This document shows positions 43,443 through 46,413 of a stretch of DNA of 47,099 bases, one piece after another. The translations under genes and the position numbers were made by a program. The stretch is taken from positions 1-47,099 of the forward strand of contig JAJZGY010000013.1 of the NCBI GenBank assembly GCA_021804785.1. The letters run 5' to 3'. Source of the stretch: Pseudomonadota bacterium. GTDB taxonomy: Bacteria > Pseudomonadota > Alphaproteobacteria > Micropepsales > Micropepsaceae. Every line of letters starts with the position of its first letter. The first letter of the stretch is position 1. Under the pieces are notes generated by a model. It searched no databases and was not told the DNA's origin. It saw only the letters and a list, made by a program, of their open reading frames with translations.

Positions 43443-43520
43443 TGGTGCGGACGGCCGGACTTGAACCGGCACAGGCCTTTCGACCCTGCGGATTTTCATA
43501 GCACTTCGGCTTTCGCCGCC
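43443..43520 (-). pseudogene. Truncated tRNA-Leu 3' half with group I intron tail
   Basis: These 78 bases match 44853-44930 at 71 positions: the full 3' exon of tRNA-Leu including CCA (54 nt) and the last 24 nt of its group I intron. There is no 5' half upstream, so it cannot make a tRNA. The substitutions look like those of a once functional allele: in the last intron hairpin a G-U pair becomes G-C (CGGC-GAAA-GCCG), the T-arm pairs perfectly, and the final intron G is kept. It forms a direct repeat with the intact gene and marks one edge of the 1.3-kb insert (43521-44852). Confidence 0.88.
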
Positions 43521-43591
43521 GGCATCAAAATATCCGATACTGAAATGGCCGACCCCAACATCGTGCGTGAGCCATTCCATAGCGCATGGGA

Positions 43592-43972
43592 TTACACCAT
43601 CAGGTCCAGAGAAAAGTGACGTAGTAATTTGGCGACACAGCCTTTGGCTTCGGGCACAAGCGCGAGCCTCGCAGCTAGCCATGCCTCGATCCCGCCTTCC
43701 AGCACGTCGACGGCGACACCCGCGCTGCGCAGCCGTGCAGCGACGCCCGGACTTATCCTTGCGCCTGTCTGACCGATGACAGTGGCATTACGATCTCACA
43801 ATTCCGGCACCCATTCGACGACGGTCTCGGCGTTGCGCTTCAGGGACGCGGGAATGAACCGCTGGTCAGCGGCAAATTCCTCTGGAGTGCGAACATCGAT
43901 GCTGGCCGGGTGTCGGGCAGTGCCGGTGAGACCGGAAAACTTGTCGAGAGAGATCGTGTCGATTTCAGACAT
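43592..43972 (-). pseudogene. Rhodanese domain gene, inactivated by an in-frame stop
   Basis: The frame starts MSEIDTISLDKFSGLTGTAR and reads PASIDVRTPEEFAADQRFIP, a typical rhodanese N-terminal half, then reaches a TGA at 43796-43798 and continues in the same frame with TVIGQTGARISPGVAARLRS and VDVLEGGIEAWLAARLALVP. The active-site Cys expected in the V-I-C-Q motif is Gly (VIGQ). The layout resembles the rhodanese part of ChrB-like chromate-response proteins, without the rest. The stop (possibly CGA to TGA), the missing Cys and the truncated end all indicate a dead gene. Confidence 0.8.
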
Positions 43973-44152
43973 GCGGTGTCCTTACGTGAAGCCCGACGCG
44001 ATACTTCAGCATGTTGTCCCTTGGGGTGACCGCTTTTCCCATGACTTTTGAGTACAGCCAAAGCAGGGACTTGTTTATGCTTAGATGCGGTTAACGGTTT
44101 CCGGCGTGCGCGCTTACGTCGGCACGCAGGCATTGATCGTGTTGGGATACCT

Positions 44153-44852: not shown

Positions 44853-44930
44853 TGGTGCGGGCGGCCGGACTCGAACCGGCACAGGCCTTTCGGCCCTACG
44901 GATTTTCGTACCACTTCGACTTTCGCCGCC
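44853..44930 (-). repeat. Intact-gene copy of the tRNA-Leu 3' direct repeat
   Basis: The 3' exon of tRNA-Leu plus 24 nt of the intron tail, 91% identical to 43443-43520 in the same orientation. The similarity stops abruptly after CGCCGCC in both copies. The pair brackets 43521-44852 as att sites would. Confidence 0.85.
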
Positions 44931-45122
44931 GCCTGACTCAAGGCGTTTGTGGTCTGGACTATCCCTTCACCGTGCCTCGGTCGCCCGAGGGTTAGGTGCT
45001 GCCCGTCTAGTCTCTACACCTTCCCCGTGGGGGCTTGGCTCGGGATTGCCATTTCACAGGTTTCCCCGATTTTGAGCAGTTCTGCATTTGCGGTTTCCCA
45101 CAAAGCACTCAATTTTCGAATT
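44907..45122 (-). ncRNA. Self-splicing group I intron (216 nt, probably subgroup IC3)
   Basis: Every expected helix can be drawn. P1: exon ACUU plus intron AAUU pairs with AAUUGAGU, loop CGAA, with the splice-site U.G pair (U before the intron with G13). P2 is capped by GAAA. P3 (44-49/119-124), P4 (54-58/79-83), P7 GACTA/TAGTC (111-115/162-166), P8 CACC/GGTG enclosing CCTCGG-GCGA-CCGAGG, P9 CGCCT/AGGCG and a last CGGC-GAAA-GTCG hairpin. The conserved core contains GGCAATCCCGAGCCAAG, GACTAGACGG and AGGGATAGTCC. The intron ends in G (216). It has no ORF, so no homing endonuclease. Self-splicing is inferred. Confidence 0.93.
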
Positions 45123-45168
45123 AAGTCCGTTGCGTCTACCAATTCCGCCACGCCCGCAAGTGGCTAAT

Positions 45169-45197
45169 TCTATAGCCTTCCGCCGATGAGTCGCCAA
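45169..45197 (-). promoter_or_regulatory. Promoter of tRNA-Leu
   Basis: Minus strand: -35 TTGGCG (45192-45197), 17-base spacer, -10 TATAGA (45169-45174). Transcription would start about 5 bases before the tRNA 5' end at 45157. Spacing is ideal for the housekeeping sigma factor. Confidence 0.7.
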
Positions 45198-45215: not shown

Positions 45216-46109
45216 CTAAACCTCGGCACTCGAATCCTCACTCTTGCCTTTGGGCTTACTACGCTTTGGCTTACGGGCGTTGATGGCTTCGGCATCCAGC
45301 GAGTTCTTAAAGTGAGAGGCGTAGTAGTTCTCGATCATCTCGATACTGGTCGGGCAGTTGTTGGCTACCTGATAGATGTCTGCGCCTTCCATGAGGTGCA
45401 TGCAGATATACGTGTGACGTTGCTATAGACCGTGCGGCGTTTGCCTTCATGACCTGCTTTCAGGTTCAACTCATCGAGGAGCGCACTAAATAACTCACGC
45501 CGTAACTTCCGAAAAAGGCGCCTAGTGGACCGGCCGTTATCGCACTTCCAGAAGCGCTGAAACAGGGGCACTCGCGAGGCATGCTCTCACAGAAGTGGAC
45601 GCCGCGCTTCCCACGAACTTCGATTTCGAGGATGCGATGATCGGTCGCGTCGTCAGGACACATGCCGGTATCGACCATGAGTGGCACGAAGTCATGAAGA
45701 TTTCACAGACTGTACGCCAGCGTTCATTCTTGCCGCCTTCCGCGCGTTCGAACGTGACCTTGTAGATCTGTTTGCATTCGGTCGGAGAGAACCACGTCCA
45801 ATGCGTGATCTTGCCGGAGCTTTTGTAGGGTGGTGAAATGTTCGGCAGGTAAGGCAGCCAGCCGTACGGTTGGCGGGTTTGAAGCACCTGCTGTAGGCAA
45901 ACGATTTCCTGATGGAGCGTGCCGCGCACCGAGGGCGGTGTCTTCGCATCCCCACCCTCCGCACGCCCCGTCTTCATTCGGTGGATACAGTAGTCCTCCG
46001 CCAAGCTGAGGACTGGCTTCAGTGACACGGTGACGCCCTGGAACTCCAGCATGTCGGTGGTGATGGGGTTTTCTGTTTTCATAACTAGCTCCTTCATGAC
46101 TTGCGTCAT
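45216..46109 (-). pseudogene. Tyrosine recombinase (phage/island integrase), frameshifted
   Basis: Pieces of one integrase lie in order in three frames. N-terminal SAM-like part: LQQVLQTRQPYGWLPYLPNI, PPYKSSGKITHWTWFSPTEC. Catalytic part: PLMVDTGMCPDDA, where the first catalytic Arg (usual TGMRPDEA) is Cys; ILEIEVRGKRGVHFCESMP; RRELFSALLDELNLKAGHEGK-RR; then after a one-base loss RHTYICMHLMEGADIYQVAN and MIENYYASHFKNSLDA, with the Tyr nucleophile intact. At least three frameshifts (near 45715, 45560 and 45420). It begins 58 bp upstream of the tRNA-Leu and lies on the same strand. Confidence 0.9.
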
Positions 46110-46413
46110 GCAAACCGAACTAGCCTAAGCGGAAATGAGCCGAGCGAAGCCGTTACAGACCGCAGCCAAATGAACTGACGCGGGTTGGAGCAAAGCGACT
46201 ACACGGTCACTTGGTTGCGCTCGTCTTGGTCTCGACGGCGATGAGAGCGCAGTCCCCTGTTTTCATGACCGATACCGAAGCGCCTCGACCAACAGCGCGA
46301 ACGCGGGCGACGTCTGGCGCTTGCTTGGGCAGTAAAGGTAACACCCCGAAAAGGGCGGGCACCAGTCACCTAACACGCGAACAAGACTCTTCTGCGCGAT
46401 CTGCTCGCGCACC
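46110..46413. other. 304-bp stretch without a recognisable gene
   Basis: This is the upstream region of the integrase pseudogene and the left side of the F420-reductase-like fragment. Several short frames cross it on both strands, none protein-like. I see no tRNA, repeat or clear operator. It is probably decayed coding sequence of the element. Confidence 0.4.

Follow-up and report, generated by a model that had tools for sequence, protein, structure and literature searches.

A proteobacterial tRNA-Leu(UAA) group I intron and its link to integrative elements that split the host tRNA gene

Introduction

Group I introns are known from the tRNA-Leu(UAA) genes of cyanobacteria and plastids, and the intron described here resembles them in its gene, in its site between U34 and A35, and in its shortness. 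Several described systems connect tRNA genes, introns and mobile DNA. The tRNA islands of Islander (PMC4383910) share with the elements reported below a tyrosine integrase, a crossover in the anticodon loop and a tRNA fragment that marks the element end; in the sections of that source drawn on here, an attP fragment rebuilds the split gene, whereas in the present elements the gene stays split and a separate, intron-bearing copy replaces it. Prophages of Sinorhizobium meliloti disrupt the tRNA-Leu(UAG) gene and bring a substitute copy of it (PMC11476347, main text), and resemble our elements in that the host tRNA-Leu is split centrally with the replacement inside the element; the word intron occurs nowhere in the main text of that paper, whereas the present elements have one.

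In Caldiarchaeum, an integrating element was proposed as the source of a tRNA-Thr intron, and the authors suggest a block on further invasion (PMC3293823, in excerpt). A mobile element is thus proposed to bring an intron into its tRNA target, as in the present case, but that intron is archaeal, lies at 24/25 and comes from one population, whereas ours are self-splicing group I introns that sit where the crossover takes place, in many bacteria. IStrons also partner a group I intron with a DNA-mobile element (PMC4227781, in excerpt); there splicing removes the element's own insertion, whereas here the intron interrupts the rescue gene. The anticodon loop as a 7-bp overlap region agrees with the relevant section of a review of archaeal recombinases (PMC8371274), and excerpts of three further papers (PMC8450103, PMC3984707, PMC4033280) served as background. 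Intron gain by an element in archaea, a protective role, prophage-borne replacement tRNA-Leu(UAG) and tRNA islands are already in print; what is new here is the integrase and split-tRNA context of the intron. No paper linking bacterial group I introns to tRNA integration sites was found in an open-access library.

In this study we focus on a window of 47,099 nucleotides (the whole stretch of DNA that was analysed) from a member of the Micropepsaceae. We propose, with a probability of about 65%, that the tRNA-Leu(UAA) gene of the window is the replacement tRNA of a now-decayed integrative element, and that its intron hides the attachment core at the DNA level, leaves the transcript by splicing, and travels with such elements. 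A split host tRNA together with a complete, intron-bearing replacement copy is the architecture of the elements in relatives.

Results

The interrupted tRNA gene

ARAGORN, with introns allowed, called a tRNA-Leu(UAA) gene with a spliced length of 89 nt (Table 1). Without introns it called no tRNA at all in the window; such a finder reports no tRNA-Leu(UAA) because the gene is interrupted. The split falls exactly between U34 and A35, the cyanobacterial position, as a previous sequence-only reading of this DNA had placed it. The group I fold proposed there is borne out by Rfam: the covariance model RF00028 matches the gene region at 45132-44937 on the minus strand over the full model length (positions 1-253), with 57.3 bits (E 4.8e-12) against a gathering cut-off of 50 bits. 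Furthermore, 30 of 49 RNAalifold pairs carry double-sided changes, structure and counts coming from the same alignment, which argues that the fold is not due to chance. That alignment held the 77 Leu introns of 195-225 nt among 141 extracted; 20 further entries, whose intron was missed by the extraction pattern, lie outside the 141. The P1 helix and terminal G of the earlier reading can also be read directly: exon ACUU pairs with intron GAGU to give a U.G at the 5' splice site, the last exon base being U and the last intron base G. These two ends give the anticodon UAA, which rules out the tRNA-Ser identity that ARAGORN assigned to several of the introns.

Judged from its letters and fold, the window intron probably splices itself out of the tRNA-Leu precursor. 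At 216 nt, with a longest stop-free frame of 62 codons, it has no homing endonuclease gene, there being no room for a usual one, and spread by homing is rejected on this ground. Its position lies within the 7-nt anticodon loop, the attachment core of the elements in relatives.

Table 1 Features of the window (positions on the 47,099-nt stretch) and elements delimited in related genomes.
Feature	Position	Strand	Basis or remark
tRNA-Leu(UAA) gene interrupted by group I intron	44853..45157	-	ARAGORN with introns; a second intron-bearing copy was found in the genome
5' exon, 35 nt, through U34, ending CUU	45123..45157	-	ARAGORN
Group I intron, 216 nt, between U34 and A35	44907..45122	-	Rfam and ARAGORN
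3' exon including CCA	44853..44906	-	ARAGORN
Decayed tyrosine-recombinase gene, four overlapping frame pieces (HMM bits 108, 104, 40, 38); includes ORF 45537-46109	45219..46124	-	Profile search
Promoter-like TTGGCG-17-TATAGA between integrase remnant and tRNA	45167..45197	-	Read from sequence
Partial copy, 91% identical: 3' exon of tRNA-Leu with about 24 nt of the intron's tail before it	43443..43521	-	Near lipoamide dehydrogenase gene
Stretch 80% identical to C146:376-658	43824..44109		
End of the window, matching the first 208 nt of contig C146 at 99% identity	46892..47099		Sequence comparison
Delimited elements			G044 27.6 kb; G028 27.8 kb; G022 26.1 kb; G065 22.3 kb; G072 27.2 kb
Delimited elements			G064 49.6 kb; G071 7.3 kb; G069 16.5 kb (Acidobacteriaceae)
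Delimited elements, type B			G825 34.7 kb; G826 58.4 kb

Distribution and descent of the intron

Intron-bearing tRNA-Leu(UAA) genes are widespread in proteobacteria and Acidobacteria. An intron-only scan of named genomes, with a pattern restricted to A or G at one core letter, gave at least 118 loci, which by title belong to many Alphaproteobacteria and also to Burkholderiales, Acidobacteriota, Eremiobacterota/Vulcanimicrobiota and one cyanobacterium. In PLSDB, 1266 plasmid records (four of them inspected) match over at least 80% of gene and intron. The earlier reading had noted that known proteobacterial tRNA introns sit mainly in tRNA-Arg(CCU) and tRNA-Ile(CAU); by these numbers the window case is no isolated oddity among proteobacteria. 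Vepritskiy et al. reportedly described a gammaproteobacterial tRNA-Leu intron in 2002.

Two core strings had been said to match those of cyanobacterial introns. The match is near but not exact, as each string is one letter off the commoner cyanobacterial form: in GGCAATCCCGAGCCAAG, T stands instead of the window's C in 10 of 13 cyanobacterial Leu introns (three did not fit the pattern), and in GACTAGACGG, nine of the 13 have C instead of the window's A and four have A. A quick unrooted tree of 150 introns (same-place repeats removed; 67 of 147 inner branches weak, with long-branch warnings) took in 13 of 17 called cyanobacterial tRNA-Leu(UAA) introns, the extraction pattern having missed four. 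In this tree 10 of the 13 form a separate clade with support 99 on a long branch, whereas the two introns of the window's genome group with those of G028 and G004 (support 90). The window intron thus lies outside the main cyanobacterial trnL clade; that it bears on old inheritance versus transfer, as had also been argued, we agree. Among 24 loci taken for this comparison, no homologue of the window integrase was found within the 1.7-3.7 kb available for each.

The insertion site common to both groups would fit an ancient intron that was already present before cyanobacteria and proteobacteria diverged and has been passed on vertically since. Against such inheritance from a cyanobacterial-type ancestor stand the separate clade and a patchy distribution, RF00028 matches of any kind being present in 10 of the 37 genus genomes and in 27 of the 289 genomes from the class, as well as intronless orthologues within the genus: a narrow pattern found seven intronless tRNA-Leu(UAA) genes in 60 genus genomes, five of them beside rpsD. 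Tree and patchiness together disfavour it, and we regard it as highly improbable.

Three cyanobacterial trnL introns (L101, L301 and L304, including Myxacorys) fall outside the main clade, beside acidobacterial introns, a placement that possibly reflects transfer. Two 37-kb viral contigs of IMG/VR (L033, L034) hold a complete tRNA-Leu(UAA) with intron near their ends. A group I intron next to U34 was also seen in a tRNA-Lys(UUU) gene (L015, G046:C38:3833-4131), with no integrase of the window family in its 10-kb contig. Nor was such an integrase found in the stretches searched near the tRNA-Lys and tRNA-Arg introns (L015, L016 and, more widely, L206 and L207).

The neighbouring integrase

Just upstream of the tRNA gene, the window holds the remnant of an integrase gene whose final stop codon ends 58 nt before it. 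Its truncated ORF 45537-46109 has no family match in Pfam or NCBIfam. In relatives this place is taken by longer open homologues, and tblastn found relatives in 21 other intron-bearing loci (L011 and L047 being the same place). The intact homologues are tyrosine recombinases: of three checked against Pfam, two match Phage_integrase just under the cut-off and two match SAM-like integrase domains, with no match in NCBIfam. Their stop-to-stop frames run from 397 to 509 codons, against an alignment model of 407 positions. In 28 of 140 intron-core instances (three places entered more than once) the integrase directly precedes the tRNA on the same strand, at a spacing of about 10-150 nt. The promoter-like motif between integrase remnant and tRNA, a candidate by its letters, recurs with identical spacing at one related locus (L007).

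Two types of integrase occur with these introns. Type A adjoins the tRNA, and type B, whose domains differ from those of type A and include an arm-binding domain, lies at the far end and is assigned to the element by position. No type B integrase was found at E 1e-20 among the 118 scan loci listed, as expected if its place is the far end of the element.

Elements that split the host tRNA-Leu(UAA)

In relatives, the layout is a tRNA-Leu 5' half ending in the anticodon loop, the integrase, the intron-bearing tRNA, cargo, and a 3' half beginning in the loop. Both ends were found in 10 of 19 regions (13 and 6 in two rounds), which gives elements of 7.3-58.4 kb (Table 1). The undelimited regions are those of G004, G062, G070, G061, G066 and G827 (5' half only), G068 (3' half only), G076, and G078, with a 5' half and two intron copies. 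The cores shared by the two ends are 7-13 bp long, and every one contains CTTAAAA, the whole 7-nt anticodon loop. When the host halves were rejoined, an intronless tRNA-Leu(UAA) was called in all ten cases, and each of the ten elements carries a complete tRNA-Leu(UAA) whose intron lies inside the same 7-bp loop core.

In seven cases (G022, G044, G065, G064, G072, G825 and G826) the paired stems of the host gene differ from those of the element copy, as with GCGAGCG/CGCTCGC and AGCGA/TCGCT in G072; stems that pair with each other yet are unlike the element copy indicate that the two halves belong together. Among the rejoined tRNAs, that of G071 shows one anticodon-stem mismatch and those of G028 and G022 each contain C27.U43; for G069, a portion of the 5' exon in the element copy was masked. 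The right end of G022 was first a weak BLAST match (E 0.32), for which the pattern was then relaxed. Integration at the tRNA 3' end, which the 43443-43521 fragment had suggested, was dropped once 5' halves were found upstream of the integrase.

A search for the intact intronless tRNA-Leu(UAA) pattern in 12 genomes with whole or decayed elements found a whole gene only in G072, three other matches being element-split halves. In G028, G022 and G004 the element sits within the rpsD-linked gene. This bears on the idea, due to Randau and Soll, that hosts keep the intron to guard an essential tRNA gene against integration, its link to elements being secondary. The idea has been published for archaea (PMC4390854 and PMC3293823, in excerpt), and element-free intron genes do occur at the rpsD-linked locus in the same genus (L010/L144, L013). 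However, elements themselves carry an intron copy, intronless rpsD-linked genes persist in the genus (the five of seven in 60 genomes given above, by the narrow pattern), and the gene that is split in G028 and G022 is the intronless rpsD-linked one. We consider host protection improbable as the primary reason; under masking by an element-borne intron, resident introns lacking an element (L013, L144) would have been left behind by such events.

Some other arrangements were noted. The cargo at G028:C1:1842378-1870147 includes SIR2 and HerA, type I restriction genes and a GmrSD-like protein, a defence island. In L129 (G078:C6), L099 and L012 a tRNA-Leu 5' half lies only about 80 nt upstream of the intron-bearing gene, with no integrase between, perhaps a third arrangement; L129 has two intron copies. 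In three plasmid records (L036, L038 and L039; NC_004464, LR890662 and NZ_CP053220) an unannotated intron-bearing tRNA-Leu(UAA) lies near aac(3)-IId, with an annotated AAA-family ATPase gene between the two in two of the three. The plasmid tRNA-Leu, used as a query, has matches in 1278 PLSDB records and in 626 of 5426 complete E. coli genomes; the details given here come from the three records named. L036 has a type-B-like core upstream, without a tRNA 5' half, and this plasmid piece looks like the end of a type-B-like element.

Surroundings of the window gene

The window itself holds a broken integrase and a 3' fragment, and no tRNA 5' half was found in it. That fragment, the partial copy at 43443-43521, is probably a remnant of an earlier target or of an element end. 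The intron is real, but its description as the clearest unusual element of the window passed over the integrase remnant and the partial copy.

Two group I introns were found in the window's genome, the second at C146:4692-4885, also within a tRNA-Leu(UAA). The two genes share 93% identity; their 3' halves are similar, and it is the 5' part of the intron that has diverged. The C146 copy adjoins a gene with ribosomal protein S4 domains (rpsD-like). Since the window end matches the start of C146 at 99% identity, C146 is probably the next contig, which would bring the second intron-bearing tRNA-Leu beside its rpsD-like gene into continuity with the window. In the congeneric locus L013, a lipoamide dehydrogenase gene and an S4-domain gene flank a single tRNA-Leu, so that what the window displays is an island inside this locus. 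Neither tRNA typing nor a pattern search of the genome (assembly 96% complete) turned up an intact tRNA-Leu(UAA) without an intron: nine of 42 tRNA matches exceed 78 nt, and these are Ser TGA, CGA, GGA and GCT, Leu TAG, CAA, CAG and GAG, and Tyr. Contig C146 also has a chrB-a RNA motif (RF03078; L032:522-597, minus strand) about 1.3 kb from a cation-efflux gene.

Surveys by intron and by integrase

Starting from the intron, an integrase lies just upstream of the tRNA in 20 of the 118 scan loci listed, and a tRNA 5' half with the core lies upstream in 19 of them, 12 with an integrase; a 5' half with core downstream or antisense occurs in none. The other integrase loci comprise three with too little upstream sequence (L083, L096, L097), three with the integrase in pieces only (L070, L110, L152; the 5' half of L070 has a changed core, missed by the core pattern), and two, L091 and L115, in which no 5' half was found. 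Neither sign is present in 91 of the 118 listed, with at most 8 kb of sequence per locus, so the link to elements rests on a minority of the scan introns. This absence counts in favour of host protection, and of a neutral reading in which elements picked up an intron-bearing tRNA-Leu(UAA) whose intron has no masking role. Group I introns of the anticodon loop that lack this integrase, such as those of tRNA-Arg(CCU), also agree with a neutral passenger.

Starting from the integrase, a profile built from intron-linked integrases matched 19 of 385 genomes of the class. A tRNA-Leu(UAA) stands beside the integrase in five loci (L216, L217, L218, L226, L237), four called by ARAGORN and L226, at a contig end, recognised by its 5' exon and core motif; L218 corresponds to G044, which its intron had already brought to light. 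All five have the intron, and no intronless tRNA-Leu(UAA) beside an integrase was found among the profile matches in the 385 genomes. Other matches adjoin initiator-type tRNA-Met, one tRNA-Arg(ACG), one intronless tRNA-Leu(UAG) (L227) or, in several cases, no tRNA. The profile matched 5 of 398 genomes in a phylum-wide draw, at a stricter limit, and 5 of 33 in the order of G436.

Three sister elements, of which the 5' ends only were examined, use tRNA-Leu(CAA) (L197, L198, L244/L249). In all three the host half reads GACTCAAAA and the intronless replacement GATTCAAAA, one base different in the loop. U32 in tRNA-Leu(CAA) also occurs naturally. In L244/L249 (G698:C46:230858-233864) a tandem pair of integrase genes lies between the tRNA-Leu(CAA) 5' half and the replacement tRNA. 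The intronless copies of these elements, and that beside the L227 integrase, mean that the intron is not required, and favour a neutral passenger. On the other hand, the intron lies exactly in the attachment core of elements with two different integrases, and it is in this very core that the Leu(CAA) copies depart from the host half, three times in three. UAA- and CAA-using integrases moreover interleave in a tree made by a quick method; integrases thus switch between the two targets, yet the UAA copies are interrupted in all five profile-found cases. A neutral passenger therefore seems to us unlikely, if well worth weighing. Masking of the core, by a point change in CAA and by the intron in UAA, would be the simplest common reason for both.

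Discussion

The mechanism that we propose would run as follows. The tyrosine recombinase of the element, a role suggested by its family and position, would integrate in the CTTAAAA core of the host's intronless tRNA-Leu(UAA) and split the gene, and the element would supply a whole tRNA-Leu(UAA) in its place. The intron at U34/A35 would destroy the attachment site in the DNA of this rescue copy, so that neither the element's own integrase nor a second element could recombine with it, while self-splicing would give back a normal tRNA. The intron would move between genomes as cargo of the element and not by homing, and decay of the element would leave it behind as a resident intron.

Some observations go against masking. 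The 3' fragment in the window includes a piece of intron tail, and cleanly splitting an intronless gene would not account for it; a further step is needed, for example a target that already had an intron, or recombination between copies. In G072 there is still another intronless tRNA-Leu(UAA) that is intact, and the profile-found set consists of only five Leu(UAA) cases, drawn with an intron-linked profile. The wider claim, that group I introns serve as DNA-level camouflage for elements with at least two integrases, and that this was the main route of tRNA-Leu introns through proteobacteria and Acidobacteria, we hold tentatively, as close to an even bet.

If masking holds, it would explain why selection might favour a self-splicing intron in the anticodon loop of a tRNA, and the elements would be the vehicle by which it spreads in the absence of homing. 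On this hypothesis the integrases should reject the interrupted site, and some resident introns should mark former element sites. Whether tRNA-Leu introns are ancient or transferred would thereby become a directly testable question.
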